From Flavobacterium sp. CG_23.5 (GTDB taxonomy: Bacteria; Bacteroidota; Bacteroidia; Flavobacteriales; Flavobacteriaceae), in the NCBI RefSeq assembly GCF_017875765.1, contig NZ_JAGGNA010000001.1:3561001-3625000 (forward strand): a DNA stretch of 64,000 nucleotides, read 5' to 3'. The position numbers and the translations under genes were made by a program. The notes beneath the pieces were generated by a model. The model ran no database searches. It was not told the origin of the DNA and saw only the letters and a list, made by a program, of their open reading frames with translations. Below, piece by piece: positions 9,083 through 54,183 of this stretch (the stretch's first letter is position 1; every line of letters starts with the position of its first letter).

Positions 9083-9393
9083 GAGTTCCTTTTTTTCTCC
9101 AAGGCGAATTTCTTTTTTAGCAATTCGTCTTTTAACTTGCCTTCAAGCTCTTTTTGAATAACAATTTCTTTGAGTAGCTTGTTTTCTTTTTCCAGTTCTC
9201 TGATTCGTTTAAGCTGCGCGGGGGTCATTCCATGTGCGAAGCCCTCTTCGCCCATAGTATCCATCTTCTTCTTCCATGAGTAATAACTCGCAGGAAATAC
9301 CGAATATTTCTCTAATGTAGGTTTAACACCTTGTTCTGAAGCTTCCTTTATGATCTTTAGCTTCTCTTCTTTGGTAAATTTTCTCTTTTCCAT
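9079..9393 (-). CDS. IS3-family transposase OrfA (HTH), copy 1
   Basis: A 104-residue DNA-binding subunit. A helix-turn-helix (FTKEEKLKIIKEASEQGVKP, then PASYYSWKKKM) is followed by a leucine-zipper-like coiled coil (RIRELEKENKLLKEIVI). It recognises the terminal repeats and regulates transposition. The stop overlaps the start of orfB. Confidence 0.9.
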   Translation of the reverse strand: MEKRKFTKEEKLKIIKEASEQGVKPTLEKYSVFPASYYSWKKKMDTMGEEGFAHGMTPAQLKRIRELEKENKLLKEIVIQKELEGKLKDELLKKKFALEKKRNS

Positions 9394-9612
9394 CGTACAA
9401 AATTATAGATTTCTATTTATAATTGTGTCCGATTATTTAAGGGGCTGAAACAAATACTATTATGTTTCAAAAAAGTGGAATCAATTAAAATTTTCATTTT
9501 CAAGAATTAAAGAGAATTAACTCATCAAAATTCTGTTGCTGGAGGGTTGCTCCTCCAGCGTGGGTTACAGACTTAACCACTATTAATAAAGAATACCCAA
9601 TAAAAAAATATA

Positions 9613-10401: not shown

Positions 10402-10757
10402 TCTAGATATGCATTCATCAACATTAAGATAAATTTTATCAAAAATTGAATTTTTAATAAACTAATCCTTAACTAGAAACTGTAAAATAGAAAATATAAT
10501 TGTTTACGATTTTTTTACGATGGTAATTATACTATACTTATTTTTCATCCAATCCCTAAAAAAAAGAGGTGGAGCGAATTTTCGTCCCACCTTAGCCCAT
10601 TAAAATTCAGTTTGTTACCTTTAAAACAATATGGCAAACAATAATAACCGATTCACATTAATTCTGGACTATTTTAATCACCTCTTTCAATATATATGCC
10701 AACTGGTCTAATATATATTGACGTTGATGATACTTTATTGATTTGACTAATCCTTAG
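10402..10757. other. Spacer with hairpin and debris (X segment)
   Basis: Contains a strong hairpin at 10567-10592 (AGGTGG...CCACCT) followed by CTTAGCCC without a long T-run, then a short frame (10631-10708, MANNNNRFTLILDYF) that stops early. It probably belongs to the broken gene whose tail is at 10758-10946. The same sequence recurs 3213 bp further on. Confidence 0.45.
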
Positions 10758-10946
10758 ATGCTTATGCTAGATTTTCCTCCTATTGCTTTATTCAATCTAA
10801 GAGCTGGAGATAGGGCTAAAGAACTTTGGATAACCAGAAAAATTATACTTGAAACAATATCCAATCTGGTTGAAGTTGGATATATCATAACCAAGGATGT
10901 CGCTTCATCTTATTCAAGAAAAACTCAATTAACTCCAGAATTTTAG
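10758..10946 (+). pseudogene. Remnant of a winged-helix gene (X segment, copy 1)
   Basis: A 62-residue frame whose centre (RAGDRAKELWITRKIILETI, then VEVGYIITKDV) looks like a recognition helix and wing of an HTH protein. It lacks a convincing start and the preceding 130 nt carry stops in this frame. A short open piece at 10631 (MANNNNRF) could be its former N-terminus. I treat it as a decayed gene. The identical copy is at 13971-14159. Confidence 0.4.
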
Positions 10947-11011
10947 TTGCTTATAAACGATGGGTAATAAAGTTTTTAAAATATTTGGTACAAATGTTTG
11001 ATAAATGACCT

Positions 11012-11108
11012 CTAACTAGGTTTGTTTTGGAATAAATCCCAGTTAGAGTTCTTTTTAAGGATGATGTCAAATTGAGCTTTAGGATACAAGTATAATTCCC
11101 CAATCATG
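11012..11108 (-). pseudogene. 3' end of the split excisionase-like gene (duplicated copy)
   Basis: Encodes the tail IGELYLYPKAQFDIILKKN and about 13 more residues before TAG at 11012-11014. It is a passive duplicate of 14225-14321 carried along when segment X was duplicated, and has no 5' portion of its own beside it. Confidence 0.75.
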
Positions 11109-11209
11109 TGGTTTAGCCCCCTAATAATCGGACTTTAACATTTTAAGTTTTACAAACATACGCAATTAGTCAATATCTTTGTCTTGCAAGGAACAAACGA
11201 AGGCGAGTT

Positions 11210-12295
11210 TTACACCGATGTTTGTAGAAATGTTTCAGGCCTGGTCATTTCGATTTCACTAAAATTTAGTTCACCCACAAAAAAAGGCGGAATCTCTAAA
11301 TTTTGCAAGGAACTGCACTTCAGACTCGTATTGCCCGATATTTGTTGGTATGGGATTTTGAGTTTGAATGTTATTTTTCGTTTTATTTCATCTCTTTTTT
11401 GTTCGATTAGCCCTTTATTCCAGCATTCTAAAAAGATATTTGGAGGTAAATTACAAACTGAGGAATGTAGACGTTCATTATTGTATTTCTCATAAAAAAT
11501 GGTCAAAACACCTTCCAATTCATCGATTGTCCAAAAATGAAAAGGTCTTAGTTTTTTTGCTAAAATAGCATGAAAACTCTCAATATGTCCATTTTCCTGT
11601 GGGGTATATGGATGTGTAAAGACTTGATTCAGGTAGTTATCTTTGAAGAAATTTTGAATCATTTTTGCCGAAAATCGACTGTCATTATCATTGCGAACCT
11701 CAATATGAATCCCTTTTTCTAGGCAATTATTTGGTTGTAAATGATTTATTATAATATGTTCCCATGCCCTTTTAACATCTTCTTTTTTGATGGAATAGGC
11801 AACCGTCCAATGCAAAACAAGTCTGGTAAAAGTGTCAATAGTTGTTAGCACATAGCTATGCATTTTATACTCCTCGACCCACACAAATTTAATGTCCATT
11901 TCCAAAACTTCAAAGGGCTGACTTGGAAAAACCTTACGGTATTTTACCCTGGTTTTACTAGGCTTTTGATGTTGTTCCTTCAATAATTGTGCGCCTTTCA
12001 TCAATCGATATACTTTCTTATGATTAATATCGTAACCCATCAGTTGTAATCTAGTTTCCATTTTCCGATGACCATAATCTGTGTCGAGATCTTGATGAGC
12101 TTGCTTTATTTCTTCAATAATCACATCATTTGAAACTTCAAATTTTTGCCCGTACTTGTCAGTGTAAAAAGTCGTCGTAGAAGGACTTCTTCCTTGATTA
12201 GTCCGCTTGTTTTGATAATAATACTGGTGCTTGGTTATTGCTGAAATTTGAAATGCTACTTCTTTCTTCAAGCCCTGAAAAATGTAGCCTCTCAC
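11210..12295 (-). CDS. IS3-family transposase OrfB, copy 2
   Basis: Identical in sequence to the OrfB at 7997-9082; DDE core intact and presumably active. Confidence 0.9.
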   Translation of the reverse strand: MRGYIFQGLKKEVAFQISAITKHQYYYQNKRTNQGRSPSTTTFYTDKYGQKFEVSNDVIIEEIKQAHQDLDTDYGHRKMETRLQLMGYDINHKKVYRLMKGAQLLKEQHQKPSKTRVKYRKVFPSQPFEVLEMDIKFVWVEEYKMHSYVLTTIDTFTRLVLHWTVAYSIKKEDVKRAWEHIIINHLQPNNCLEKGIHIEVRNDNDSRFSAKMIQNFFKDNYLNQVFTHPYTPQENGHIESFHAILAKKLRPFHFWTIDELEGVLTIFYEKYNNERLHSSVCNLPPNIFLECWNKGLIEQKRDEIKRKITFKLKIPYQQISGNTSLKCSSLQNLEIPPFFVGELNFSEIEMTRPETFLQTSV

Positions 12296-12606
12296 GAGTT
12301 CCTTTTTTTCTCCAAGGCGAATTTCTTTTTTAGCAATTCGTCTTTTAACTTGCCTTCAAGCTCTTTTTGAATAACAATTTCTTTGAGTAGCTTGTTTTCT
12401 TTTTCCAGTTCTCTGATTCGTTTAAGCTGCGCGGGGGTCATTCCATGTGCGAAGCCCTCTTCGCCCATAGTATCCATCTTCTTCTTCCATGAGTAATAAC
12501 TCGCAGGAAATACCGAATATTTCTCTAATGTAGGTTTAACACCTTGTTCTGAAGCTTCCTTTATGATCTTTAGCTTCTCTTCTTTGGTAAATTTTCTCTT
12601 TTCCAT
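12292..12606 (-). CDS. IS3-family transposase OrfA, copy 2
   Basis: Identical to the OrfA at 9079-9393, with the HTH and zipper intact. Confidence 0.9.
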   Translation of the reverse strand: MEKRKFTKEEKLKIIKEASEQGVKPTLEKYSVFPASYYSWKKKMDTMGEEGFAHGMTPAQLKRIRELEKENKLLKEIVIQKELEGKLKDELLKKKFALEKKRNS

Positions 12607-12825
12607 CGTACAAAATTATAGATTTCTATTTATAATTGTGTCCGATTATTTAAGGGGCTGAAACAAATACTATTATGTTTCAAAAAAGTGGAATCAATTA
12701 AAATTTTCATTTTCAAGAATTAAAGAGAATTAACTCATCAAAATTCTGTTGCTGGAGGGTTGCTCCTCCAGCGTGGGTTACAGACTTAACCACTATTAAT
12801 AAAGAATACCCAATAAAAAAATATA

Positions 12826-13614
12826 ATGAAACAAGATTTACAAGTTAAAAAGTTTTACCATGATGTCCTATTTATGGCATCAGCTCGCCAAAATAAAGGA
12901 AAAGTATTTCATATCAACCCAACGCAGTTTAAGATTCTCCTTAAATTAGTCCACTATGAAAAAATGGATAAAAATATTACCTTCCAGAACAAAGATATAG
13001 CTAAGCATATATATCTGGCTGAATCAACCGTTAAAGACGCTATTGAAGAAATAAGGAAAATGGGCTACATAACTTCCGAATTAAAAAAATATAATGATCG
13101 ATTGGGTTTTAAATCAAAACGCACTATTAATTTAGATTGGGATTTTATTCAAAAATTATATGACGAATATATTTTAACGAATTCTAAGATAGACATCACC
13201 TCATCAATTCCTACAGAAATTTTAAGTAAAACTGCAATAATAGATAGTGATGAGATTGATCCAGTCATCACAGCAGAAATAATTGAACCATTAAAATTTG
13301 AAAAACTTACCTCTACTACAGATAAAACATTAAGCACTCAGGAAGAAATCACAACCGTTACGGAAGTTGCTCCAGTTACTAATAATAAAATATCTACTGA
13401 AGAAACACTACTTCTGACGGAAGTTAAAAGTGATAAAAAAATTAAAGAAGAATTAGAAGAAAGATTTGATATAGTAAAACGCAAGATGGCCAAAAATAAA
13501 CATTATGAAGATTACAATGATATTACAGAAATGGAAAAAATATCAGATCAATATTCTCCAGAAGATTTAAATTTATTCCTTGATCGGTATGAAAATAAAA
13601 AAGAAGACAATTAG
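12826..13614 (+). CDS. Winged-helix protein, replication-initiator-like (X segment, copy 2)
   Basis: An exact duplicate of the 262-residue protein at 9613-10401, created by the 3213-bp tandem duplication. Two identical copies double the gene dose; no divergence is visible, so the event is recent or the copies are kept equal by gene conversion. Confidence 0.6.
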   Translation: MKQDLQVKKFYHDVLFMASARQNKGKVFHINPTQFKILLKLVHYEKMDKNITFQNKDIAKHIYLAESTVKDAIEEIRKMGYITSELKKYNDRLGFKSKRTINLDWDFIQKLYDEYILTNSKIDITSSIPTEILSKTAIIDSDEIDPVITAEIIEPLKFEKLTSTTDKTLSTQEEITTVTEVAPVTNNKISTEETLLLTEVKSDKKIKEELEERFDIVKRKMAKNKHYEDYNDITEMEKISDQYSPEDLNLFLDRYENKKEDN

Positions 13615-13970
13615 TCTAGATATGCATTCATCAACATTAAGATAAATTTTATCAAAAATTGAATTTTTAATAAACTAATCCTTAACTAGAAACTGTAAAA
13701 TAGAAAATATAATTGTTTACGATTTTTTTACGATGGTAATTATACTATACTTATTTTTCATCCAATCCCTAAAAAAAAGAGGTGGAGCGAATTTTCGTCC
13801 CACCTTAGCCCATTAAAATTCAGTTTGTTACCTTTAAAACAATATGGCAAACAATAATAACCGATTCACATTAATTCTGGACTATTTTAATCACCTCTTT
13901 CAATATATATGCCAACTGGTCTAATATATATTGACGTTGATGATACTTTATTGATTTGACTAATCCTTAG

Positions 13971-14159
13971 ATGCTTATGCTAGATTTTCCTCCTATTGCT
14001 TTATTCAATCTAAGAGCTGGAGATAGGGCTAAAGAACTTTGGATAACCAGAAAAATTATACTTGAAACAATATCCAATCTGGTTGAAGTTGGATATATCA
14101 TAACCAAGGATGTCGCTTCATCTTATTCAAGAAAAACTCAATTAACTCCAGAATTTTAG
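13971..14159 (+). pseudogene. Remnant of a winged-helix gene (X segment, copy 2)
   Basis: Exact duplicate of 10758-10946. The hairpin of the first copy recurs upstream at 13780-13805. Confidence 0.4.
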
Positions 14160-14224
14160 TTGCTTATAAACGATGGGTAATAAAGTTTTTAAAATATTTG
14201 GTACAAATGTTTGATAAATGACCT

Positions 14225-14321
14225 CTAACTAGGTTTGTTTTGGAATAAATCCCAGTTAGAGTTCTTTTTAAGGATGATGTCAAATTGAGCTTTAGGATAC
14301 AAGTATAATTCCCCAATCATG
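14225..14321 (-). pseudogene. 3' end of the excisionase-like gene split by IS copy 3
   Basis: Reads IGELYLYPKAQFDIILKKN and about 13 more residues to TAG. Joining it to 15883-16103 after removal of the IS and one CATG gives an unbroken frame (GIIPYTM followed by IGELYLYPK), so this is the true C-terminus of the interrupted gene. Confidence 0.85.
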
Positions 14322-14422
14322 TGGTTTAGCCCCCTAATAATCGGACTTTAACATTTTAAGTTTTACAAACATACGCAATTAGTCAATATCTTTGTCTTGC
14401 AAGGAACAAACGAAGGCGAGTT

Positions 14423-15508
14423 TTACACCGATGTTTGTAGAAATGTTTCAGGCCTGGTCATTTCGATTTCACTAAAATTTAGTTCACCCACAAAAAAAGG
14501 CGGAATCTCTAAATTTTGCAAGGAACTGCACTTCAGACTCGTATTGCCCGATATTTGTTGGTATGGGATTTTGAGTTTGAATGTTATTTTTCGTTTTATT
14601 TCATCTCTTTTTTGTTCGATTAGCCCTTTATTCCAGCATTCTAAAAAGATATTTGGAGGTAAATTACAAACTGAGGAATGTAGACGTTCATTATTGTATT
14701 TCTCATAAAAAATGGTCAAAACACCTTCCAATTCATCGATTGTCCAAAAATGAAAAGGTCTTAGTTTTTTTGCTAAAATAGCATGAAAACTCTCAATATG
14801 TCCATTTTCCTGTGGGGTATATGGATGTGTAAAGACTTGATTCAGGTAGTTATCTTTGAAGAAATTTTGAATCATTTTTGCCGAAAATCGACTGTCATTA
14901 TCATTGCGAACCTCAATATGAATCCCTTTTTCTAGGCAATTATTTGGTTGTAAATGATTTATTATAATATGTTCCCATGCCCTTTTAACATCTTCTTTTT
15001 TGATGGAATAGGCAACCGTCCAATGCAAAACAAGTCTGGTAAAAGTGTCAATAGTTGTTAGCACATAGCTATGCATTTTATACTCCTCGACCCACACAAA
15101 TTTAATGTCCATTTCCAAAACTTCAAAGGGCTGACTTGGAAAAACCTTACGGTATTTTACCCTGGTTTTACTAGGCTTTTGATGTTGTTCCTTCAATAAT
15201 TGTGCGCCTTTCATCAATCGATATACTTTCTTATGATTAATATCGTAACCCATCAGTTGTAATCTAGTTTCCATTTTCCGATGACCATAATCTGTGTCGA
15301 GATCTTGATGAGCTTGCTTTATTTCTTCAATAATCACATCATTTGAAACTTCAAATTTTTGCCCGTACTTGTCAGTGTAAAAAGTCGTCGTAGAAGGACT
15401 TCTTCCTTGATTAGTCCGCTTGTTTTGATAATAATACTGGTGCTTGGTTATTGCTGAAATTTGAAATGCTACTTCTTTCTTCAAGCCCTGAAAAATGTAG
15501 CCTCTCAC
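14423..15508 (-). CDS. IS3-family transposase OrfB, copy 3
   Basis: Identical to the OrfB at 7997-9082; DDE core intact. Confidence 0.9.
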   Translation of the reverse strand: MRGYIFQGLKKEVAFQISAITKHQYYYQNKRTNQGRSPSTTTFYTDKYGQKFEVSNDVIIEEIKQAHQDLDTDYGHRKMETRLQLMGYDINHKKVYRLMKGAQLLKEQHQKPSKTRVKYRKVFPSQPFEVLEMDIKFVWVEEYKMHSYVLTTIDTFTRLVLHWTVAYSIKKEDVKRAWEHIIINHLQPNNCLEKGIHIEVRNDNDSRFSAKMIQNFFKDNYLNQVFTHPYTPQENGHIESFHAILAKKLRPFHFWTIDELEGVLTIFYEKYNNERLHSSVCNLPPNIFLECWNKGLIEQKRDEIKRKITFKLKIPYQQISGNTSLKCSSLQNLEIPPFFVGELNFSEIEMTRPETFLQTSV

Positions 15509-15819
15509 GAGTTCCTTTTTTTCTCCAAGGCGAATTTCTTTTTTAGCAATTCGTCTTTTAACTTGCCTTCAAGCTCTTTTTGAATAACAATTTCTTTGAG
15601 TAGCTTGTTTTCTTTTTCCAGTTCTCTGATTCGTTTAAGCTGCGCGGGGGTCATTCCATGTGCGAAGCCCTCTTCGCCCATAGTATCCATCTTCTTCTTC
15701 CATGAGTAATAACTCGCAGGAAATACCGAATATTTCTCTAATGTAGGTTTAACACCTTGTTCTGAAGCTTCCTTTATGATCTTTAGCTTCTCTTCTTTGG
15801 TAAATTTTCTCTTTTCCAT
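15505..15819 (-). CDS. IS3-family transposase OrfA, copy 3
   Basis: Identical to the OrfA at 9079-9393. Confidence 0.9.
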   Translation of the reverse strand: MEKRKFTKEEKLKIIKEASEQGVKPTLEKYSVFPASYYSWKKKMDTMGEEGFAHGMTPAQLKRIRELEKENKLLKEIVIQKELEGKLKDELLKKKFALEKKRNS

Positions 15820-17251: not shown

Positions 17252-18472
17252 TTAAACGAATTTAGTTTTCAATTTATCCATGTCTTCCATTACATTAATA
17301 TCTAGTACTTTGGCGTAGTGTTGGGTCATTGTAATTCTTGTATGTCCCATCATTTTGGAAACATTTTCAATTCCAACACCATTACCTAGGGTAACTGTAG
17401 TTGCAAACGTATGTCTGGCTACGTAATGGGTAAGCTTTTTATCGATACCGCACAAATCAGCTATCTCTTTAAGATATTCGTTGATTTTCTGATTACTGAT
17501 ATTTGGAAGTAGTTTATCACTATCTAAACTAGAGTATTTGTCAATAATTCTTTTAACTGGTGGTAATACGGGAACATTTGACTTTGTTTTTGTTTTGGCA
17601 CGATTCGTTACTATCCAGTAATTTTCTTTATTATCTTTAATAATATTTTTTTTAGTTAGGTTTTCAACATCTATAGGAGCGTAGCTAGTATAGCACGAGA
17701 ATAAAAAAATGTCCTTGACCTTATTAAGACGTTCTGTACTAAATTCTTTAGCCTCGATTCTTTCAAGTTCATCTTTAGTTAGGAATATAGCATCCTTAAT
17801 TACTAACTTTTCATCATAGCACAGAAAAGGATTAGTAGTAATTATATTTCTTTTGATTCCATATATGCATACAGTTTTGAAGCATTGAAAATATTTAACC
17901 ACAGAATTATGACTTATACCTAATTTGTTATTAAAAGAGGAATCGTACTTTAAAAAATTTTCTAAATCATAAATAAAGCCATTGTCTATTTCATTGATAT
18001 TACATGATGTTTTACCATGTTTTATTTTAATAAAATTGGATAATAAATCTTTTGCTCTGTTATATTTTTGAAGTGAGGCTTTACTGCGTTCACCAACTTC
18101 GGATTTCTTTTTAAAATAATCATTATGTTTTTTGAATAATTTAAGAACATCATACTCTCCAGTTTTTGATGATTTTCCGTTTAGATTATCTTTTACATCA
18201 GAAAGGGTTGTATTATGGTTGTGGCGAGTCAGTTCAAAATAAATAGACTCGATCTTATTTTCGAGTATATCGATTGCTATTTTGCAGTTGACTTCACTAT
18301 TTAAACGAAGTTTATTTCTAAGTTTATTTGTGAATTCCCATCTTTCTCTGCTAATAAATTTACCAGTACATAAGGTTGTGGATTTACCTTGTAGTTTAAT
18401 TTTAGCATAAATAGGAGATTCTCCTTCACTATTTTGCTTGTCAGTTTTCAGATAAAAAAAAGTCTTAATCAT
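17252..18472 (-). CDS. Tyrosine-type site-specific integrase
   Basis: A 406-residue recombinase that would integrate and excise the surrounding element. Residues 1-100 form an arm-binding domain (FFYLKTDKQNSEGESPIYAK, IKLQGKSTTL), 105-205 a SAM-like core-binding domain, and 215-400 the catalytic domain. The second catalytic box HYVARHTFAT, the HxxxH-type GHTRITMTQHYAK and its nucleophilic Tyr are present. The first box reads CYTSYAPIDVENL, without the usual Arg, as in IntDOT-like integrases of Bacteroidota conjugative elements. It sits at the right end of the element beside the end-site iterons. Confidence 0.9.
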   Translation of the reverse strand: MIKTFFYLKTDKQNSEGESPIYAKIKLQGKSTTLCTGKFISRERWEFTNKLRNKLRLNSEVNCKIAIDILENKIESIYFELTRHNHNTTLSDVKDNLNGKSSKTGEYDVLKLFKKHNDYFKKKSEVGERSKASLQKYNRAKDLLSNFIKIKHGKTSCNINEIDNGFIYDLENFLKYDSSFNNKLGISHNSVVKYFQCFKTVCIYGIKRNIITTNPFLCYDEKLVIKDAIFLTKDELERIEAKEFSTERLNKVKDIFLFSCYTSYAPIDVENLTKKNIIKDNKENYWIVTNRAKTKTKSNVPVLPPVKRIIDKYSSLDSDKLLPNISNQKINEYLKEIADLCGIDKKLTHYVARHTFATTVTLGNGVGIENVSKMMGHTRITMTQHYAKVLDINVMEDMDKLKTKFV

Positions 18473-23677: not shown

Positions 23678-24103
23678 TCAATGTTTCTTGCAATAGCGAT
23701 GCAAAATAACCCTTCTCATTTCAGAAATTAAGGCAATATTCTGATGGAAATGATTTTCTTGTTGTTCCAGCAACCTCAACGCCTTAACTTCTTTTTGATG
23801 CTGCTCAAAATCGTGTAGCATTTCATTGACTTTAGTCGAGAAATCTTTTTTAAAATCTTGAATTCGCAAAAAAGGAATTACAGAACCATAAAGGGATTGG
23901 TGCCAGAATTTGGATTTCCAAAGGCTATAGGCCAGCCAATATACTGTTTCAGTATCCTCTTTGTTTGCGAAAATAATCACAAAACTATTGGTGAACGGTT
24001 CTTTTTGAGGCTTTCCACTATTCAACCCTTTGTTAAGGATAAAGATTTGTTCGCCTTTGTAACAGGTGTCTTTCTGATGTGTTTTAATTATAAAGTTTGG
24101 CAT
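23678..24103 (-). CDS. Conserved hypothetical protein, DUF6943-like
   Basis: A 141-residue soluble protein. GEQIFILNKGLNSGKPQKEP followed by ETVYWLAYSLWKSKFWHQ matches my memory of the DUF6943 family, which occurs in Bacteroidota accessory regions; the C-terminal half (HDFEQHQKEVKALRLLEQQ) should be a long helix. Function is unknown. It is preceded by an unusual purine-rich non-coding stretch of about 900 bp, which may be its leader or an unrelated RNA. Confidence 0.65.
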   Translation of the reverse strand: MPNFIIKTHQKDTCYKGEQIFILNKGLNSGKPQKEPFTNSFVIIFANKEDTETVYWLAYSLWKSKFWHQSLYGSVIPFLRIQDFKKDFSTKVNEMLHDFEQHQKEVKALRLLEQQENHFHQNIALISEMRRVILHRYCKKH

Positions 24104-25051
24104 GGCTTTGTTGTTTTGGTTATACTTTTTTTATGCTGAAATTTTTCGAAAAGAAAAAAGAGAAAAAAAGAAAGCCATCTAAAAAGCGGAAATGACGAAC
24201 GGAAATGGAGGGAGGAACGACCGACTGAAAGTGAGGAATGGACGCTAATATTGCTGGTTTTTTATCTCTTTCTTTTCGATAAAATTCAGGGTCGTTCTGG
24301 ATTCTTTTTGAAGAATTTCTTATGGAAACAGCAATCAAACACCCCCAAGCACCGCAGAAAATGATAATTGTAGCGAAAGCGGAAATTATTGTTTTTCGAG
24401 GAGCGAAGTTGGCGGTGTTGCGGCAATCGAACAGCTACCATAAATGCGGGAATTGAGCGAAGGAACGTAGCGAAATGGAGCAGGTATGAGCGTGAAACGG
24501 CGGGGAAGAAATATGACACAGCCTTTGGCTATCCTTGATTTAGGGCAAAGTGAGGTTATTACCGAACGGAGCCAACCCCGATAGCTGTGCGAAGGAGCAA
24601 CCGCTGAAAAAACAGAGGGCTATAACCAGAATATGGCTGGAATGCAGTGCAGCGGAGGAACGGAGCGAAACGGAATGAAGCGGTATTGTGGTTATGGTAG
24701 CCCGACCGAACGCAGGAAGTGACCGTGTGAAGACGAGGAGCGAGATGGCGCAATAAAAACAGCTGTCCTGCCTTTTGCCGGGACTGCTGTTTTTGTTGTG
24801 GCCATATTGCGGCGGTGGAATGGAGGGGAACCTATATTGCTTCTTATGAAAAAAAGTATGCCTAAAATACCCTGAAAGATGTTATGAAAATATATGGTTG
24901 ACCGACTGGAACCGCGGAGCGGAACAAAGGAAGCGACCGTAGGGAGACCTATTGATTGCCCGTAGTGGTGATTCGCTAAATTACCTTATAGAAATTTTTC
25001 TAATCTTGAGTTAAATTGGATAATCGTGTTCGTCATTGTTTCTAAATTCTA
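24104..25051. other. Purine-rich, relatively GC-rich non-coding stretch
   Basis: The plus strand is dominated by A and G with recurring words such as GGAGCGAA, GAACGGAG and GAAGCGG, and its composition differs from all neighbouring genes. Minus-strand open frames here have low-complexity Ser/Phe/Arg-rich products and are not credible genes. It contains a hairpin terminator at 24755-24796. It might be an RNA gene, a leader of the DUF6943-like gene, or degraded repeat DNA. Confidence 0.5.
24755..24796. terminator. Hairpin terminator inside the purine-rich region
   Basis: AAAAACAGC-TGTCC pairs with GGGAC-TGCTGTTTTT around GCCTTTTGCC. Both strands have T-runs. Confidence 0.65.
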
Positions 25052-25354
25052 TTATTTTTTGCTTTGGAGATTATGTGTCAGAACTGAAATGTATGTTGTC
25101 AACGATATATTGAGCCAAAACTGCCAATTTGAAAGATCTATGATGCTTACAATTATTACTATAGTAGCGATAGTCAATAATGCGATACTACTTTTTTGTC
25201 GTTTTTTAACTTTATTGACTGGAGTTGATTGTTTATTTTTAAAACCATTGTTATAAATTTTCACTCCACAATTAATCGTATGATTTGTATCATTGTCAAT
25301 TATAGCCCAACCAATTGAACTTGTGCCTAAATCAAGTCCTAAATACTTTCCCAT
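25052..25354 (-). CDS. Small membrane protein with a Cas9-like RuvC-I N-terminus
   Basis: A 100-residue protein. Residues 4-20 (YLGLDLGTSSIGWAIID) followed by CGVKIYNNG are the RuvC-I segment of type II Cas9, including the catalytic Asp (GLDLG). A short basic stretch (NKVKKRQK) stands where Cas9 would begin its Arg-rich bridge helix. From residue 59 the sequence is unlike Cas9: two hydrophobic segments (IALLTIATIVIIVSII and FWLNISLTTYISVLT) and a basic end. No HNH, RuvC-II/III or PAM-binding parts follow, and no CRISPR repeats were seen nearby. It starts 14 nt after the nucleotidyltransferase gene ends, so it is the third gene of that operon. It could be a remnant of cas9 fused to a membrane protein or a kept membrane protein with a borrowed RNase H-like segment. 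Confidence 0.7.
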   Translation of the reverse strand: MGKYLGLDLGTSSIGWAIIDNDTNHTINCGVKIYNNGFKNKQSTPVNKVKKRQKSSIALLTIATIVIIVSIIDLSNWQFWLNISLTTYISVLTHNLQSKK

Positions 25355-25368
25355 TTATTTTTTTATTT

Positions 25369-26133
25369 TTAAATATTAAAAGCACTAATTAATTGTTCAA
25401 ATAACTCCTTTACATTCACATTTCCTGCACCCATTTCTTTAAAAATTTGTTTGTCTGGCAAATCATTCTTTACTGCTTCAGCAAAATTTGCTATATCCGT
25501 TTTTACGCTTGTTGGAATTGTAAAATTATCTTCGGGAGCTAGTAGTAATAACAATCTGAAAACATCCATTTTATGTTTTCTTAATTGTCGTTCATCAATT
25601 TTTTCTCCGTTTTCTTTGCGCGTTTTATAATCGAGGAATGCTTTGGCTTTTAATCCTATTAAAGCTTCACTATTGGCGAGATGTATACCGTTATCTAATT
25701 GGCTGTGTTTGATCGTGAAGTTGTAATAATCATCATCCATCAGTATGGCCGATAAACTTGAAATTTCTGTATCTACTGGAATTGGAGTTAAATGTGTTCC
25801 TTCCGCTAAATCTAATAAATCGGGGATTCTTGAGAATAATTCTATTTGAAATGGAAATTCTTCTGCTTGTGGTTTTTGGAAACGATAGTACTTTCTGTCT
25901 TCTTCACTTTTCTCTTTGACATCATAATTTCCTTGTTTGATAAACTCCCAAAAATGAGTTACAAATTCCGGGCTTAATGCTTCAATGACTAAAATTATAT
26001 CAATATCTTTTGTTGCTCTTGGTGTAAGCCCAACATTATCAATTACAATATCACAAGCAGTTCCACCAATGATGATGTAGTTATCTGTGAATTCTTTGAA
26101 ATGCTGTCTGAAAATTTCTAAACCTCTTACCAT
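25369..26133 (-). CDS. AbiEii-like nucleotidyltransferase
   Basis: A 254-residue soluble protein. YIIIGGTACDIVIDN and then ATKDIDIILV form the nucleotidyltransferase signature (GG, then DxD for metal binding). The C-terminal half is helical with ALIGLKAKAFLDYKTR, as in the AbiEii/AbiGii toxin group. Such enzymes transfer nucleotides to RNA or proteins; type IV toxin-antitoxin systems pair one with a winged-helix regulator. That arrangement is seen here: the upstream gene encodes an HTH protein and overlaps this one by 7 nt. The start at 26133 uses the overlapping ATG. Confidence 0.75.
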   Translation of the reverse strand: MVRGLEIFRQHFKEFTDNYIIIGGTACDIVIDNVGLTPRATKDIDIILVIEALSPEFVTHFWEFIKQGNYDVKEKSEEDRKYYRFQKPQAEEFPFQIELFSRIPDLLDLAEGTHLTPIPVDTEISSLSAILMDDDYYNFTIKHSQLDNGIHLANSEALIGLKAKAFLDYKTRKENGEKIDERQLRKHKMDVFRLLLLLAPEDNFTIPTSVKTDIANFAEAVKNDLPDKQIFKEMGAGNVNVKELFEQLISAFNI

Positions 26134-27116
26134 ACGTATTTTTCTATTATTTGGTCTAATGCCATATCTGTTCGTTCATCAATAAATCCGTCTTTTAAAC
26201 TTAAATATAAAGACAATGGATCTACATTATTTTTCTTCGTTATTCCTTTTGTGATTCGTTCCGGATTATATTTCCAAACTTCTAATGCATAGTTGCCATT
26301 TTCATTATTTAGGTTTACTAACTGATTATTTTTTTCCAATGCATAAAATTGGTTTTTTTCTATGGCAAAATAATCCAACTTGCTGGGGTTCATATCCGTA
26401 TATTCTTCTAATGCTGTTGTATTAGATTTTAATAATCCTTTTGGTTTTTCATCGATATAGACCGTTTTCATCACTGGATTAACTAATTGCTTTTCTACTT
26501 GTTTCCAAAGTTTTTGAATGTCTTTTTCGAATATGATATTCTTCTCTTTTGTCCCTTCAACTTCTACGATAGCCAATCGTTTCAAATTTTCTATTGCCTT
26601 GGTAATTCCCATTTGTGTGTATTGGAATTTTTCTGCCAGTTCCTTGAATGTATAGTGGCTTAAATCATCTTGCCTATGTAAAATGTGGTATAATAAGATT
26701 AATTGTGCTGAAGGCAACAATAAAAATTCTTTTTGAAATTCTTTGCCTTTATTAAAATCCTGAATATCAATTAAAAGTTCTGTCAGGTACATTTGTTTGC
26801 CAGGAATGATGAAACTAATTTTTTGGTCGATTAGTCTTTTTCGATTTATTGCTGTAATATCATCCGTAACAACTACAATTCTTTTATCTATGGCATTTTG
26901 AATACTAACAAGTTGTTTTCGCAATTGTGCAGCATTAAGCGCTTCTTCTTTGTTCAGCTCTAATAGTATCAATTCCCGATTAAATAATAGGGTAGTATAA
27001 AAAGTATAATTGTTCTTGAATATAAAAGGCAATTTATTCAAAACTTCTTTTGGCAACTCTTTTAAAACAAGTTGTTCGCCAAGTATTTGCTGGATATATT
27101 CTTTTAATTTTTCCAT
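26127..27116 (-). CDS. Winged-helix regulator, probable partner of the nucleotidyltransferase
   Basis: A 329-residue protein. Residues 150-200 form a MarR/IclR-like winged helix: AQLILLYHILHRQDD, then FKELAEKFQYTQMGITKAIE as helix-turn-helix and KRLAIVEVEG as wing. The N-terminal half (residues 60-130) has alternating hydrophobic strands and resembles the restriction-enzyme-like fold found in related proteins. The C-terminal part (PSKLDYFAIEKNQFYAL) is beta-rich and may contact the nucleotidyltransferase. It is the first gene of the operon and is preceded by a promoter embedded in repeats, so it probably represses its own transcription. Confidence 0.7.
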   Translation of the reverse strand: MEKLKEYIQQILGEQLVLKELPKEVLNKLPFIFKNNYTFYTTLLFNRELILLELNKEEALNAAQLRKQLVSIQNAIDKRIVVVTDDITAINRKRLIDQKISFIIPGKQMYLTELLIDIQDFNKGKEFQKEFLLLPSAQLILLYHILHRQDDLSHYTFKELAEKFQYTQMGITKAIENLKRLAIVEVEGTKEKNIIFEKDIQKLWKQVEKQLVNPVMKTVYIDEKPKGLLKSNTTALEEYTDMNPSKLDYFAIEKNQFYALEKNNQLVNLNNENGNYALEVWKYNPERITKGITKKNNVDPLSLYLSLKDGFIDERTDMALDQIIEKYVW

Positions 27117-27238: not shown

Positions 27239-27997
27239 TTATACTGAAATAATAGCTTTGTCATTAAATCCCATATTTTCATTGTATTTGATATATCCCA
27301 ATTGATTGGTTAACAGTTTTGTGTTTCCAATTTCAAAATCACCAACATTGCAATGATGATGTCCATAAATCCAATAATCGATAGTGTTGTTTTCTATAAA
27401 GACATCTAAGTTTGTTGCGAAGGCTTCATTGATTTTGCTGTCGGCATATTTTTCAGGGAAATTGATAAATGTTGGCGTATGATGTGTTACTACAATTGTT
27501 TTCTTATTAGCAGTTTCTTGTACTGCTTTTGTTATAAATGCCAAACTTTCTTGATGCAGCAGATTATAGTCATCCGGATTGAATAAGCGATTCTTGTATT
27601 TAATTACTTTAAAGTCAGAGAGACTTTCTTTTATAAGCCACTGTTTTGAGGGAGAAATGTTTGACCATAAAGTTGAAAAAATCAGATTGACACCTGAAAT
27701 TTCTTTAACGCAATTGTTTACTAAAAAAATATTGTCACGGATTTGCTCCTCTAAGACGCCACTTTTTTCTGCAATGTTGTAATAGTAATATTCGTGATTT
27801 CCAGGTATCCAAAAAGTCATTTTAAAATGCTCTGAAATATAATCGAAGAAATCCTGATGTTTATCCATTATGGCAAACGGTACTATATCTCCAGCTAAAA
27901 TTAGAATATCCGCTTTTGGCTTAATAGGGTTTTGAAGGATAAACTTTTTATTTTCTGGGAACTCTAGGTGTAGGTCTGAACAATATTGGATCTTCAT
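27239..27997 (-). CDS. Calcineurin-like metallophosphoesterase
   Basis: A 252-residue cytoplasmic protein. All the binuclear metal motifs are present: YCSDLHLE (residues 4-11), ILAGDIVPF, WIPGNHEYYY, VVTHHTP and YGHHHCN. These coordinate two metal ions that hydrolyse a phosphoester; the substrate (nucleotide, nucleic acid or phosphoprotein) cannot be told. No signal peptide is present. It is separated by about 120 nt from the promoter of the operon described next to it and is probably transcribed separately, though in the same direction. Confidence 0.88.
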   Translation of the reverse strand: MKIQYCSDLHLEFPENKKFILQNPIKPKADILILAGDIVPFAIMDKHQDFFDYISEHFKMTFWIPGNHEYYYYNIAEKSGVLEEQIRDNIFLVNNCVKEISGVNLIFSTLWSNISPSKQWLIKESLSDFKVIKYKNRLFNPDDYNLLHQESLAFITKAVQETANKKTIVVTHHTPTFINFPEKYADSKINEAFATNLDVFIENNTIDYWIYGHHHCNVGDFEIGNTKLLTNQLGYIKYNENMGFNDKAIISV

Positions 27998-29064: not shown

Positions 29065-31116
29065 TTATGAATTTTCAACTTCATCCTCAATATTTTCAAA
29101 ATTTGAAAGGCCTTGATTTATAATCAATTCAACATCTTCTAATGTTTTTATGTTTTTAATTAACTCATATTTGGGATATATTTTTTTTAGTATATTTTTA
29201 AATTGATTTATGTTGATGTTTTTATTATCCATTTCTAGAGTCATAGTTATTTCATCTTTAGGGGATAAATAAGGTTCATATAATTTATGATACGAATTAC
29301 CAATAGCGCCTGAAAAAGGAAATAAAATTGGTTTAATTCTTCCTCCATGAAGTATTTGGTCAACAGCAATTCCTGGATAAGGGTCAATGTAAAAAATAAT
29401 TCTAATACCTAATTGATATGCTTTTTTTGAACAAAGTTCGCAAGGACTAGCAGTTGTAAAAAGAATACCATTTTCAACACCTAATCCACCTGATTTAGTA
29501 AGTTGCAACATAGCATTTTCTTCGGCATGTAATGATCTTGTATGAACTTGATTTGATTCTCCTTCATAATGATTATGGATAGATTTAAAACAAAATGAGC
29601 AATTTTTACCATTAAGCTCATCTTTTTTAAGTTTATAATCTTCTTCGAAGTAATCAACGATTGCGTCTTTAAAAGTGGAAACGGAAGTGTCTTTATATTT
29701 GTAATCAGATGTACTTGTTATGTTTCCTTTCTCAAATTCACTGTAATGAACACTATTCACTATGGCGCCATTAAAATAATCCTCAACATTTCTAAGATTA
29801 CATGGTGTATGCCCTTTTGCTACGTCATTCCAACCAATAGACTTTGCAATAAAATTCTTATCAGTAATCACTGCACCTACTTGTCTTGAAATACATCCAG
29901 AATTTAATTTTGCAGTGTAAGCTATCTGCATATTTCTTTCACTAGCGCTAGGTGTAATTAATCCCGGCTGATAAATAAGAGAAACTAGTTTCATCAATTG
30001 TTCTTCTCTTGTTAAGAAAGTATTAGAAATTTTTTCTTTTTCAATAATGGTTGCTCCATGATCTTTTTCAAATAATTCTAAAAAAGAATCAATTTGATCA
30101 ACTTTAAGGTTAAAAATATGATAATCACTTTTTTGAATACAGTTTTCTACGTTTGGTGAAGTAAATATTCCTTTTGAGAAATCTTTATTTTTATATTCAG
30201 TTTCATCTAAGTCAATTAATTTTTCTACTAATTCTAAACGTTCAGATTCATTAGTTATCTTATTGAAAAATCTTTCATCTAACCTTTCCTTTGAGTTCTC
30301 AAGAATATCTTTAGTTGCAACCATATAAAATGCAGAATAACGTTCTTTGAAAAAAGTAATTTCTAATGAGTTTCTAAGTGAATCAATAACAATTTTTGTA
30401 GATTTAGATTCCGTACTATTAAATTTCTTTCTTGCTTTTATTATTTTATTTATTAACTCAGCAATTGTATAAACATTATTAGGATCGGTATTGTTTTCAA
30501 TACCCGATTTTCTAGATTTTCGAATGTTACATGAAACAGAATGAAATAAACAGGTCCTTCTAAAATAGTTTCCTTCAGCTTCTAGAATTTGCATAAAATC
30601 ATTTGTAAATTCTATAAATTCTTCACCAAAAAAAATCTTATTTAATAGCAATAAACTTTCAGTGTTCTTTATGTTTTCAAAACTTACTAACTTGTTAATA
30701 TTCTCTAATAAAGTTTTATGCTTAACAAAAGTTTCTTCTAATTTCACAAATTTTTTTTTAACTAACTCTTTATTGTCTTCAGCGTTACTTTGTCTATAAT
30801 ATTTATTTAAAAGATTCCTAATTTTAAAAAAATCACTTCCTGTTTTTTTTACAATGTATAATAATAAAACTTTTTTGTACTCAATAATATCGTATTGTTG
30901 CCAATTGTTTCCATAGGATAAATAATTCTTAGTAATCTCAAATTTTCTTTTAAATACTGGGTCTGAAAAACTATTAGCTTCTCTTAGACCATTGCTCAAA
31001 TTATTAAAATCTTTACTCAATAAATCTGAAATTTGTGAGCATCCTGAACCAGTTCTGCCAGTAAGTCCAATTATTGTAAAATCTGTCCTATGTTTATAAA
31101 GTTCTTTTAATTTCAT
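29065..31116 (-). CDS. dCTP-deaminase-type antiphage protein
   Basis: A 683-residue two-domain protein. The N-terminus has a P-loop (IIGLTGRTGSGCSQ, residues 15-28; the usual GKS is GCS here) as in nucleotide kinases. The C-terminal half is a zinc-dependent deaminase: SRQVGAVITDKN, HAEENAML near residue 530 (His ligand and catalytic Glu) and SPCELCSKKA near 563 (two Cys ligands). This build is that of AvcD and other antiphage dCTP deaminases, which deplete dCTP during infection. It follows the type IIG enzyme by 9 nt, so the two form one operon, unlike AvcID where an antitoxin RNA precedes the gene. Confidence 0.82.
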   Translation of the reverse strand: MKLKELYKHRTDFTIIGLTGRTGSGCSQISDLLSKDFNNLSNGLREANSFSDPVFKRKFEITKNYLSYGNNWQQYDIIEYKKVLLLYIVKKTGSDFFKIRNLLNKYYRQSNAEDNKELVKKKFVKLEETFVKHKTLLENINKLVSFENIKNTESLLLLNKIFFGEEFIEFTNDFMQILEAEGNYFRRTCLFHSVSCNIRKSRKSGIENNTDPNNVYTIAELINKIIKARKKFNSTESKSTKIVIDSLRNSLEITFFKERYSAFYMVATKDILENSKERLDERFFNKITNESERLELVEKLIDLDETEYKNKDFSKGIFTSPNVENCIQKSDYHIFNLKVDQIDSFLELFEKDHGATIIEKEKISNTFLTREEQLMKLVSLIYQPGLITPSASERNMQIAYTAKLNSGCISRQVGAVITDKNFIAKSIGWNDVAKGHTPCNLRNVEDYFNGAIVNSVHYSEFEKGNITSTSDYKYKDTSVSTFKDAIVDYFEEDYKLKKDELNGKNCSFCFKSIHNHYEGESNQVHTRSLHAEENAMLQLTKSGGLGVENGILFTTASPCELCSKKAYQLGIRIIFYIDPYPGIAVDQILHGGRIKPILFPFSGAIGNSYHKLYEPYLSPKDEITMTLEMDNKNININQFKNILKKIYPKYELIKNIKTLEDVELIINQGLSNFENIEDEVENS

Positions 31117-31125
31117 ATTTATTTT

Positions 31126-34100
31126 CTAATTATTTTCTATTATCCCAATTTCTTCCTCACTCAACCCATACAACTCATACACCATTTTATCAATTGCTTT
31201 TTCAGTGGTTTCTATTTGTGATTTTAGGGTTTGGGCTTTGGTTTTGTTTTCTTCAAATAGATCCAACCATTCGAACTCGTCTTTTTTGGTGAGTGGCGTT
31301 TGTCCAGCTATTTTAATGGCTTTGTTGAGTTCTGTAATGAAATCAGCAAAGGATAATAGGTGCCAGTTTTGGAGTTTTTTTGAGAGTTTGTCCAAAGAAA
31401 ACTTTGAAGAAAAGTATTTTTGAAATTTAGATTCTAACTGTTGAAAAGATGAGATATAATCAATCATTAAATCAGCTATATTTTCAAATTCAATTTCGTT
31501 TTTAAATTCAGGTATTGGGATTTGTTCAAAATATTGTGGTTTCACTTCAATGTAGCCACCACTTCGAACTACACAAATAGACAATAGAAATTTCCATACA
31601 ACTTTTGAGTTTAAAATACATAAAAGTGTTTTACTTGAATTAGGTAAAAATACTGCTGGAGCATTTATGTAAACACCTTCTGAGTCTAAAGCAAATTTGT
31701 TTGAATTTTGAAGGTTCGGAAATATAATCTTTGGTTTTTCAAATAAATCGTAATAGGCGCAATTTCTCAATTCCCACCAAAAATCTCCTTTATCGAATCG
31801 TTTTTTTGCCAAATTTTCAAAAGGTAAAAGATGATTCATAATTTGAGGAAAATCTTTTTTTAAAATCGTCAAAGCTTCTTGTTCAGAAATATCATTTCCG
31901 TAGGTTGATTTTGTCCATTTACTTTTAAACAGAATCAATTGTTGTGCAGCAGCAGGAACTACCCACTTTTTTATTTCTTTCCCTTCGAAAATAGGTTTTA
32001 TATGTTCTGCAACTATTTTGTCATCTACTATGAATGCTTCATTAAGAGCAGTTTTAACACCGTAATAACACTTCCCAAATTTTTGTCTTACAGATGGGAA
32101 AGTTGATATTTTTTTTAAGAATACAGCTTCATTTGAAGAAGAAAAAGACCAAGTATCCTTTGAAAGCGTATTTTGATCTACAATTACATTTTTATGAAAT
32201 TCAATATCAATTATTTTTGACTGACTTAACTTTGGAATTTTTATATATTCAAATTTATTAGTATTCGATAAAGTATTTTTATTTAGAGTTATAATTACAG
32301 GATAAGTTGTTGCTCCTTCAAATATTTGTACTTCTGTAAAATCGATATATTTTTTGAACGAAATATTTTGTTGGAGATAATTTCTTAAAACATTCCCTGC
32401 ATTAGTTTTATCAAATGTATTTGAAATGAATCCCATACTTCCCGTTTTATTTATAATGGAAACACCCAATTCATAGAAATAAGCAAACAAATCACTTGCA
32501 GGATGAAACACACTAAAGTTTTTACTAAAATAATCTCTGTAATCTCCTAAAAGTTCCGCTCTGACATAAGGCGGATTACCAATAATCACATCAAAACCAC
32601 CTTTGGCAAATACTTCAGGGAATTCTTCTTTCCAGTTAAAGGCTTTGTCGCCAGCAACGGTTTTGCTTTCAATCAGCGAGTTGCCACACTTGATGTTGTT
32701 GTTCAGGCTGGTGAGTTTTCGTTTGGGTTGGGCAGTGCGTAGCCACAAAGAGAGTTTCGCGATCTCTATACTTTCCTCATTAAGATCTACACCGTATATA
32801 TTATGTTCTAAGATTTGGTTTTCGATATCCGGAAAGGTGAATCCACCACCAAAAAGTTGTTTAGTAAGTTCATCTACATAACCGTGTTCTTTTATCAGGA
32901 AATCCAATGCTTGATTCAGGAACGCACCAGAGCCGCAAGCAGGGTCACAAATAGTAAGGTCTAAAAGCCATTCGCGGTAGTCCTTGAGCTGCTGATCCAG
33001 TTTTATAATGATGGTTGCCTGACGGTTTTTTCGTCCCTTGGCATATTCCTCGTCTATAATGCCGAGTTCTAGTTTTTTCTCTGTACACAATTTACCAACG
33101 GTGTTATCTACGATGTATTTGGTAATGTATTTCGGGGTATAGAAAACACCGTCTTTCTTGCGTTTGGATTTTTGTTTGTCGAAATCAGCGCCTTCAATCT
33201 CTGCATTGACACTTTCTATTTCGTTTAGGGAATGCTCGAAAATGTGTCCCAAAATATTCACGTCAACTTGGCTTTCAAAATCGTAAGTCGATAATTTTTT
33301 GGTATGACGATAGAGTAGATCATCGTCTATGATAATGGCGTCCAAAATAGTATCAGGTAGAAAAAGTCCGCCGTTGTAGGCAAAAATTTCTTCTTTTTTG
33401 TCGGTGCCTTTGCGACCGGTATCGAGATAATTGAAATATTGTTTGTAGCGATCATATAAAGGAACAGTCATATCCAAGTCTCCCAATGCTTTCCACTCTT
33501 TTAATATAGTAGCGATAGAGTTTGGCGCAAGTAATCCACGGTCTTCGGCAAAGAGAATAAAAAGAAAACGGTCGATGAGTTTTTGTGACTTTTTAAAAAG
33601 CATTAGTTTAGAAGTCTTCTCCGGTAACTCCATTAACATCACATTATTCCTGTTTTGTTTTACTAAATCCCTATATAATTCGCGTTTGAAGAGCGAATAA
33701 TCGGCATAGAATTTTTTGGTAATATTTTCCTCTTCTACAATTGATGCTTCTTTTATACTCAGCGGTTTGTTTGAAAGAATATTGTCTTTGGCCAGACAGA
33801 GGTAGAATATTTCAAATTCAACATGAGTTAATGTAAAGAGATTGAATTCTTCATAGTCCACGGCATTGTTGATGTATAACCTTAACTTCTCGAAATTGGA
33901 TGTAATGACATAGATACAACCTGTTTGGTTGGCTTTGTAATCAAATGCTTGTTGGCGAATGCTTTCGAGATCTTTGGTATTGGTTCCTTTGAGTTCAATA
34001 ACTGCCAATGCATTTCCGTCTTTCAGGATGGCACCATCTACTTTCTTGGAACCTTTTATGTTTTTGAGTTCGGTTGTGAGGTTGAATCTTGGGCTAGGGT

Positions 34101-34299
34101 TGAGGGTATATCCCAAAATATCCACAAATAATTCCCGCATAAATCCCTCCTGGAATTGTTCCTCTTTACTGTTGCGTATGTTTTCCTGAATAGAGGTATT
34201 GTGGAAATACTTGATGTATTTTTTATATGCTTTCAGAACTTGATCCGAACTTTGTTGACTTAAATATTTTTTGAGAACAGAAGGCTGGAATAATGACAT
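31126..34299 (-). CDS. Type IIG restriction-modification enzyme (Eco57I-like)
   Basis: About 1057 residues combining cutting and N6-adenine methylation. Near residues 80-110 (ELKN, VDGAILKDG, AVIELKGTN) lies a PD-(D/E)XK-type nuclease. The helical connector contains RFLFILFAEDRGLLAP. The methyltransferase has DPACGSGAFL (motif I, about residue 452) and GNPPYVRAEL (motif IV, about residue 575). A C-terminal target-recognition domain follows. The open frame begins with a GTG at 34308; the ATG at 34299 (MSLFQPSVLKKYL) is preferred. No separate methylase or specificity gene is present, as expected for IIG. It leads an operon with the deaminase gene. Confidence 0.88.
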   Translation of the reverse strand: MSLFQPSVLKKYLSQQSSDQVLKAYKKYIKYFHNTSIQENIRNSKEEQFQEGFMRELFVDILGYTLNPSPRFNLTTELKNIKGSKKVDGAILKDGNALAVIELKGTNTKDLESIRQQAFDYKANQTGCIYVITSNFEKLRLYINNAVDYEEFNLFTLTHVEFEIFYLCLAKDNILSNKPLSIKEASIVEEENITKKFYADYSLFKRELYRDLVKQNRNNVMLMELPEKTSKLMLFKKSQKLIDRFLFILFAEDRGLLAPNSIATILKEWKALGDLDMTVPLYDRYKQYFNYLDTGRKGTDKKEEIFAYNGGLFLPDTILDAIIIDDDLLYRHTKKLSTYDFESQVDVNILGHIFEHSLNEIESVNAEIEGADFDKQKSKRKKDGVFYTPKYITKYIVDNTVGKLCTEKKLELGIIDEEYAKGRKNRQATIIIKLDQQLKDYREWLLDLTICDPACGSGAFLNQALDFLIKEHGYVDELTKQLFGGGFTFPDIENQILEHNIYGVDLNEESIEIAKLSLWLRTAQPKRKLTSLNNNIKCGNSLIESKTVAGDKAFNWKEEFPEVFAKGGFDVIIGNPPYVRAELLGDYRDYFSKNFSVFHPASDLFAYFYELGVSIINKTGSMGFISNTFDKTNAGNVLRNYLQQNISFKKYIDFTEVQIFEGATTYPVIITLNKNTLSNTNKFEYIKIPKLSQSKIIDIEFHKNVIVDQNTLSKDTWSFSSSNEAVFLKKISTFPSVRQKFGKCYYGVKTALNEAFIVDDKIVAEHIKPIFEGKEIKKWVVPAAAQQLILFKSKWTKSTYGNDISEQEALTILKKDFPQIMNHLLPFENLAKKRFDKGDFWWELRNCAYYDLFEKPKIIFPNLQNSNKFALDSEGVYINAPAVFLPNSSKTLLCILNSKVVWKFLLSICVVRSGGYIEVKPQYFEQIPIPEFKNEIEFENIADLMIDYISSFQQLESKFQKYFSSKFSLDKLSKKLQNWHLLSFADFITELNKAIKIAGQTPLTKKDEFEWLDLFEENKTKAQTLKSQIETTEKAIDKMVYELYGLSEEEIGIIENN

Positions 34300-34540
34300 T
34301 TGGAACACTTTTATTAAAAGTGGAAATTAGGGATTTTTTCTGAATAATATTGGGTTGATTGTCGTGAGTTTTGAACAGGTTTATGAAATTTTAAATTACA
34401 ATTATTAATTACTAAAATGAACTGTTGATTTGCAACAACTTGTTTCGTAATCAATAAAGTATCAGCCTTTGGAATAATAGCTAAATTCTTGAATTAAATT
34501 CGAGCTATTTAAATTGCGATAAGTTATAAAGGTTCAAAAA

Positions 34541-54048: not shown

Positions 54049-54183
54049 CATAATTAAAGTTGGTTCAATATTTATTTGCAATATATGAAAAAAAGCATTT
54101 GTATTTTAACAATGAAAACTTCCAGAATTATTTTTTATTGGTTTGGCCCTAAAACGAAAAAAGACACCTTAATACAGCACCTT

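Follow-up and report, generated by a model that had tools for sequence, protein, structure and literature searches.

A conserved family of small proteins joins the RuvC-I segment of Cas9 to a predicted membrane hairpin

In this study, we describe a conserved family of small proteins in which the first RuvC segment (RuvC-I) of Cas9 is followed by two hydrophobic helices. One member is encoded in the window, by which we mean the whole stretch of 64,000 nucleotides from Flavobacterium sp. CG_23.5 that was analysed. The same fusion was found in 15 loci, all of them open frames, in about nine gene contexts and with 29-80% identity to the window's protein. The gene thus represents a conserved small-protein family and not cas9 debris. 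What is new is the architecture and its conservation, and the function is putative. A conserved stand-alone piece of Cas9, apparently tied to the membrane, would be a new way of reusing CRISPR parts.

Results

The gene lies on the minus strand at 25052..25354 and comprises 100 codons plus the stop, with an ATG start and no internal stop. An earlier sequence-only reading had described, at exactly this place, an intact 100-residue frame with a RuvC-I motif and two hydrophobic segments, which was borne out. Residues 1-36 (25247..25354, minus strand) form the RuvC-I beta-meander of Cas9, as seen in model matches and predicted strands, and include YLGLDLGTSSIGWAIID (residues 4-20) and CGVKIYNNG (residues 29-37). 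In place of the Cas9 bridge helix, alignment and predicted structure reveal a lysine-rich linker (residues 37-56; 25187..25246, minus strand), a region that is helix-like in member L075. Hydrophobic helix 1 (residues 57-75; 25130..25186, minus strand) was assigned by hydropathy and AlphaFold, and hydrophobic helix 2 with the sequence NWQFWLN (residues 76-95; 25070..25129, minus strand) by alignment, hydropathy and AlphaFold. The first segment is strong (mean hydropathy of 2.55 in the best 19-mer, from residue 57) and the second weaker (0.73; the remaining 12 members of the alignment range from 0.68 to 1.64). From an input of 13 sequences, AlphaFold modelled the RuvC-I segment as three strands (3-9, 13-20 and 25-33), as the sequence-only reading had proposed to check, and both hydrophobic segments as helices (46-72 and 74-99); the model is modest, because its mean pLDDT is 69.5. 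The predicted two-helix hairpin may anchor the protein in the membrane.

The RuvC-I motif, including the catalytic Asp, had been called specific to Cas9, and profile searches agree: the NCBIfam model TIGR01865 (Csn1) matched the window's protein with E=1.6e-10 (residues 4-43) and the PADLOC Cas9 model with E=1.2e-10, whereas non-Cas9 models were far weaker (Pfam RuvX 0.021, NCBIfam RuvC 0.067). A general RNase H-fold or RuvX motif was therefore ruled out for this protein, the Cas9 model being about eight orders of magnitude better. In its own complete, single-contig genome, this ORF is the sole match of TIGR01865 (E=1.3e-9, positions 2-35). The best match to a solved structure is a Cas9 (E=0.0017), and the first 21 PDB matches of the model in Foldseek are all Cas9 chains, none with E<0.001. 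Both TIGR01865 (best 8e-17) and the PADLOC Cas9 model match all 13 aligned members, and residues 1-21 of the family track the consensus of 62 Cas9 N-termini, those in register among 68 collected. The REC, HNH, RuvC-II/III and PAM-interacting parts are absent from the aligned members, which are only 93-121 aa long (n=13), in agreement with the earlier remark that the window's protein carries no other Cas9 part.

The bridge-helix region varies within the family, from a bridge-helix-like stretch in L075 and an Arg-rich stretch in L038 to the Lys-rich linker of the window's protein. L075 (genome G546, 121 aa) matched the Csn1 model over positions 2-61 with 59 bits and aligns to SaCas9 through residue 58. 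Its predicted structure (mean pLDDT 82; 90-93 in the first 30 residues) consists of the meander, a basic 35-residue helix (37-71) at the place of the bridge helix, and helices 74-92 and 97-120, and its first 24 PDB matches are Cas9, the best with E=7.4e-4. As the simplest history, we infer that the first ~60 codons of a cas9 gene were joined to the hairpin and that the bridge helix eroded later. In a tree of N-termini built on 60 columns, with 42 of 77 branches left open, a single family clade was neither rejected (p-AU 0.80) nor supported.

The gene is rare and occurs mainly in one genus. A pattern scan of genome contigs yielded five Flavobacterium loci (L032-L036) with 78-80% identity over all 100 residues, hosted by F. 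fryxellicola, F. gillisiae, F. frigoris, F. flabelliforme and a MAG. G329 (34%, residues 2-97) and G169 (39%, residues 1-93) were added by a family-level scan of 397 genomes, which with the alignment as query again gave 3 of 397, own genome included. At the genus level, members were present in 11 of 299 genomes (the own genome, the hosts of L032-L036, G628, G436, G546, G406 and G462), and at the phylum level in two of 395 (the own genome and G546). The IMG/VR contigs L071 and L072 hold one member each, and further viral-contig scans returned these two again, plus two Cas9. No member was found in plasmids (queries: the window's protein and L075) or in phages (queries: the window's protein and L074), and Rfam gave three matches, every one below the gathering score. 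Thus the fusion does recur in other genomes, which the sequence-only reading had proposed as a check.

Among the other matches of these scans, most are long Cas9 frames. Shorter frames align only to RuvC-I, and all that were read proved to be Cas9 or Cas9 ends. Rejected as members were L113 and L114 (long Cas9 frames), match H1 on a Phocaeicola plasmid (a Cas9 frame of 1504 aa), L055, L056, L058, L065 and L068 of the genus scan (Cas9, 297-561 aa as read), and G371, G787 and G877, in which the frames run towards contig ends and the tail is absent. G367 has a frame of 46 aa near a contig end, and the weak matches in G350 and G694, which contain internal stops, may be decayed members or chance. 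A class scan of 395 genomes with the hairpin as query gave no convincing case of this hairpin on other proteins: 33 genomes, own included, matched at E<=0.05, the best other match (5.7e-4) was a frame with stops, and none of the five weak matches read (L117, L119, L121-L123) resembles the family.

The alignment contains 13 members, L032 and L036 having been left out as near-copies. M1, D8, G10, S13, I14, G15, W16, D20, L59 and W77 are invariant in all 13, D8 (25331-25333, minus strand) being the residue aligned with the catalytic Asp of Cas9. L5, G6, L7, L9, G30, F79, W80 and N82 are near-invariant, and so is the tail motif WxFWxN. Whole-protein identity to the window's protein is 29-45% in the nine members outside its group, and DNA similarity between dissimilar loci spans about the first 50-90 bases of the gene. 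Whole-gene dN/dS was 0.20-0.59 in 17 pairs (own group and two other pairs), and the pooled value was ~0.4 (ratio of proportions 0.40, p=3e-8, from three independent pairs with sites taken as independent). For the first 50 codons alone, where the close group shows 0-6 synonymous changes, dN/dS ranged from 0.08 to 2.0 with one value undefined, and several close pairs did not fall below 1; in residues 1-22 the sole difference within the close group is at residue 12. In related genomes, two cas9 genes are genuinely broken (L078, 234 aa; L081, 155 aa); they retain bridge-helix sequence, and no WxFWxN-type tail was present in the frame read. Because the same fusion occurs in other genomes and is under purifying selection over the whole gene, it is not a one-off chimera, and the earlier suggestion that the gene is kept and no mere fragment holds.

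For the gene neighbourhood, nine contexts were distinguished, the window and L032-L036 being counted once and L074 and L077 likewise. In the first, variable genes (an Eco57I-like enzyme in the window, SIR2 in L033, HsdR in L034) are followed by a metallophosphoesterase, an HTH protein, an AbiEii-like nucleotidyltransferase and the RuvC-I gene. All of these are on the minus strand in the window: the AbiEii-like gene (25369..26133; Pfam AbiEii E=5e-4, below cut-off, and no PADLOC match) is located 14 nt upstream of the RuvC-I gene (6-14 nt across the window and L032-L036), and the two are likely on one transcript. It is overlapped by the gene of the HTH protein (26127..27116; ORF list and family scan), and family scans identified the metallophosphoesterase (27239..27997), a neighbour conserved in L032-L036, and, in the same island, the Eco57I-like restriction-modification enzyme (31126..34308). 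This island also contains a gene (29065-31116), possibly for nucleotide-based defence, whose 683-aa product carries a cytidine/dCMP deaminase domain (1.4e-12) at its C-terminus. The mobility-gene scan detected a tyrosine integrase at 17252..18472 (minus strand).

Downstream of the RuvC-I gene, a non-coding stretch (24317..24800, minus strand) matches L073 at 75% over 517 columns and is partly similar to L034. It contains many short repeated words, the downstream stretch of L076 also resembles that of L034, and it could be element backbone or a transfer region. A DUF6943 gene (2e-54; 23678-24103) lies 0.9 kb downstream, and by reading, similar frames follow the gene in L073, L074, L076 and L077. 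Elsewhere in the window, an IS3-type two-frame transposase unit occurs three times within 7997-15819 at a spacing of 3213 bases and once more at 48948-50344; a 262-aa gene separates the three spaced copies. A 1052-aa protein encoded at 50923-54081 has a metallophosphoesterase-like start, seemingly followed by an NTPase (by reading), and looks like a defence gene.

In the second context (L076), AbiEi (2e-78) and AbiEii (1e-116) precede the RuvC-I gene, and in the third (L038) a PDC-M68B/LmuB-like ATPase lies upstream and an FRG-domain protein, an HTH protein and AbiEii follow. In L075 (context 4), a CBASS cyclase (8e-140) and a 4TM effector (2e-150) are followed by the RuvC-I gene and DUF6994, and in L073 (context 5) a Schlafen/AlbA gene is located upstream. 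Context 6 (L074) has HATPase and PDC-M04A (1.7e-82) genes upstream and, 8 nt downstream, a UPF0489-like gene that is also present in L077 (L074 5880-6668 and L077 9787-10575; 262 aa, E=4e-5, below cut-off), a possible local partner in these two loci. The remaining contexts contain MksE and a marginal JetD (1.9e-4) in L071 (context 7; Wadjet-like by reading), a downstream 214-aa gene matching no family in L072 (context 8) and an adjoining integrase in L037 (context 9). PADLOC matched 11 of 20 neighbours at 1e-3 or better, which is not a rate, as the neighbours were hand-picked. No partner gene common to all nine contexts was seen among the neighbours read.

Mobility genes (integrases, a coupling protein and ICE-type genes) are near the gene in six of the nine contexts, in a scan that left out L072, L073 and L076. 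Integrases were found near the window's gene, L037, L071, L074 and L077, with a partial one near L075, and a coupling protein in L038; L032 has a topoisomerase and a DUF4099/DUF3945 gene. AbiEii-like genes are nearby in three of the nine contexts and are of different kinds: PADLOC assigns PDLC02299 in L076 and PDLC02307 in L038 and has no match for the window's. L035, a close relative, has an in-frame stop in its AbiEii-like frame beside an intact RuvC-I gene. The surroundings of the gene are more aptly called defence-island cargo of integrative elements.

Type II-C Cas9 was present above the curated cut-off in six of 13 carrier genomes, with Cas1 in the same six, and both were absent from the other seven, the window's genome among them. 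Where carriers possess cas9, it sits on another contig than the RuvC-I gene, and no CRISPR genes were found beside the latter in the loci read. Arrays near cas9 in the six II-C carriers contain 7-76 spacers. In a spacer test with one array chain per genome (that of G462 ends at a contig end), none of the 184 spacers of these six genomes had a near-full match in ~793 kb around the gene; short partial matches were the only ones. At E<0.05, real spacers gave 53 rows over all loci against 26 for mono-nucleotide-shuffled ones, counts inflated by duplicate loci; when each spacer is compared with its own genome only, the numbers are 4 and 5. In the genus sample, Cas9 was not significantly commoner in carriers (5/11 vs 92/288, p=0.34); the non-carrier count is a minimum, because the search overlooked the Cas9 that G546 carries.

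Discussion

In the Cas9 chain the three RuvC pieces are widely separated, so that synthesis of RuvC-I is long complete when RuvC-II and RuvC-III appear. A RuvC-I that is tethered to the membrane and acts in trans might pair with RuvC-II and RuvC-III of Cas9. Such pairing would either disrupt the RuvC domain or keep Cas9 membrane-bound, and a mobile element would thereby be shielded from the type II-C CRISPR of its host. We put forward only tentatively that the family acts in this way: the protein would be a free-standing mimic of Cas9 that impairs the type II-C enzyme, and hence an anti-CRISPR derived from a piece of Cas9. Action through the likeness to Cas9 is suggested by the persistence of the Cas9 consensus in a protein that otherwise drifts: Cas9 models match 13 of 13 aligned members, and D8, G10, S13-I-G-W16 and D20 are invariant despite identities of 29-45%. 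The kept residues presumably belong to the fold core and the active-site Asp rather than to the exposed surface, and this pattern would fit pairing with RuvC-II/III in trans while the hairpin holds the complex at the membrane. Further points in favour are the whole-gene dN/dS of 0.20-0.59 in the own group and two other pairs, mobility genes in six of nine contexts, and type II-C cas9 and cas1 with arrays in six of 13 carriers. Moreover, there are precedents, as far as the consulted parts of the sources go: AcrIB3 resembles Cas5 and AcrIB4, of 9.1 kDa, resembles the C-terminus of Cas8b (PMC13131331), and a II-C Cas9 with a dead RuvC domain, carried by a phage, was proposed as an anti-CRISPR (PMC10910872). 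Against the Cas9 mimic, the spacer self-targeting test was negative (184 spacers, ~793 kb), Cas9 and Cas1 are both missing from seven of 13 carriers, and carriers do not have Cas9 significantly more often than other genomes of the genus sample (p=0.34). In addition, the neighbours are defence genes, a text search of an anti-CRISPR review (PMC13131331) did not return the word 'membrane', and in the first 50 codons, with 0-6 synonymous changes, several close pairs do not show a dN/dS below 1.

Because half of the carriers are without Cas9, an effector or sensor at the membrane that works independently of Cas9 is about as likely. Here the meander would have been exapted for binding or oligomerisation, and the membrane would be the target of the hairpin, either in abortive defence or in a function of the element itself such as exclusion. 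Besides the seven of 13 carriers without Cas9 and Cas1, the defence neighbours (AbiE, a CBASS cyclase with its 4TM effector, FRG, PDC-M04A, MksE/JetD, Schlafen and restriction) point in this direction, as does a weak SLATT_4 likeness of the hairpin in four of 13 members (best E=0.02). However, the SLATT_4 match is below cut-off and DUF3784 matches equally many members, and the strict keeping of the Cas9 consensus, including the active-site Asp, would be left unexplained.

Less probably, the protein is a bait that mimics the Cas9 N-terminus, so that binding of a phage or plasmid anti-CRISPR triggers the hairpin and membrane harm aborts the infection, also in cells without Cas9. In this boldest reading, the first 40-60 residues of Cas9 would have been converted into a decoy by mobile elements or by their hosts, and an attack on CRISPR would itself be detected. 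The defence-island context would suit such a role. In the consulted part of the source, crystals of AcrIIC2-Nme1Cas9 held only Cas9 residues 16-77, that is the bridge helix and part of RuvC-I (PMC6594998), and L075 has its basic 35-residue helix at just the bridge-helix place. Yet AcrIIC2 reads bridge-helix arginines and most members have lost the sequence of that helix, and the best-kept part would be buried in folded Cas9.

The sequence-only reading had placed the gene in an operon with a nucleotidyltransferase. This link stood insofar as an AbiEii-like gene is adjacent in the window, 6-14 nt before the gene there and in L032-L036, and AbiEii is also near in L076 and L038. It did not stand as a general partnership, for AbiEii is absent among the neighbours read in six of nine contexts, its kinds differ, and the AbiEii-like frame of L035 is broken beside an intact RuvC-I gene. 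We therefore regard it as improbable that the protein serves an AbiE-type toxin-antitoxin operon as an accessory part, such as an anchor that ties the nucleotidyltransferase to the membrane. The window's protein contains no further part of Cas9, and Cas9 is missing from its genome, but it is scarcely credible that the gene is what a deleted cas9 left behind after chance fusion to a hydrophobic frame, the one-off chimera that the earlier reading had also considered, since the same fusion and tail motif occur in 15 intact loci, the pooled dN/dS is ~0.4, and the broken cas9 genes L078 and L081 keep bridge-helix sequence with no such tail in the frame read.

If the family does spoil Cas9, it would be an off-switch with a new design, built out of the RuvC-I of Cas9 itself; a bait function would reveal how anti-CRISPRs are sensed by cells. 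Either reading lends itself to direct testing, as the protein has only ~100 residues and no common partner was seen.

No family of the same architecture was found in Pfam, NCBIfam, PADLOC, PHROGs or the PDB, and no described protein of this kind was recognised in the open text of PubMed Central, a search that leaves preprints and most subscription papers outside. The family is neither Cas9, nor a proven anti-CRISPR, nor an AbiE component. AbiEii-like neighbours in three of nine contexts recall the AbiE type IV toxin-antitoxin system, but the family is neither AbiEi nor AbiEii and occurs without both, and among the matches shown for the 13 members there is no AbiE model. With the 2TM/4TM effectors of the SLATT and S_4TM type it has in common a small membrane hairpin and the defence-island context, and an S_4TM effector is close by in L075; however, there is no significant match (SLATT_4 in 4/13, best 0.02), and the remaining contexts, as far as read, show neither a cyclase nor a SLOG partner. 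The Cas-homologous anti-CRISPRs AcrIB3 and AcrIB4 and the phage RuvC-dead Cas9 likewise represent Cas effectors, in part or as copies, and are carried by mobile elements (PMC13131331, PMC10910872). In the consulted parts of these sources, AcrIB3 and AcrIB4 act on type I-B Cascade, the phage Cas9 is whole and membrane helices are described for none, whereas inhibition by the present family is only putative. Finally, the family shares with the N-terminus of type II-C Cas9 the same RuvC-I sequence and predicted fold, but carries a hydrophobic hairpin instead of the REC, HNH, RuvC-II/III and PAM-interacting parts.
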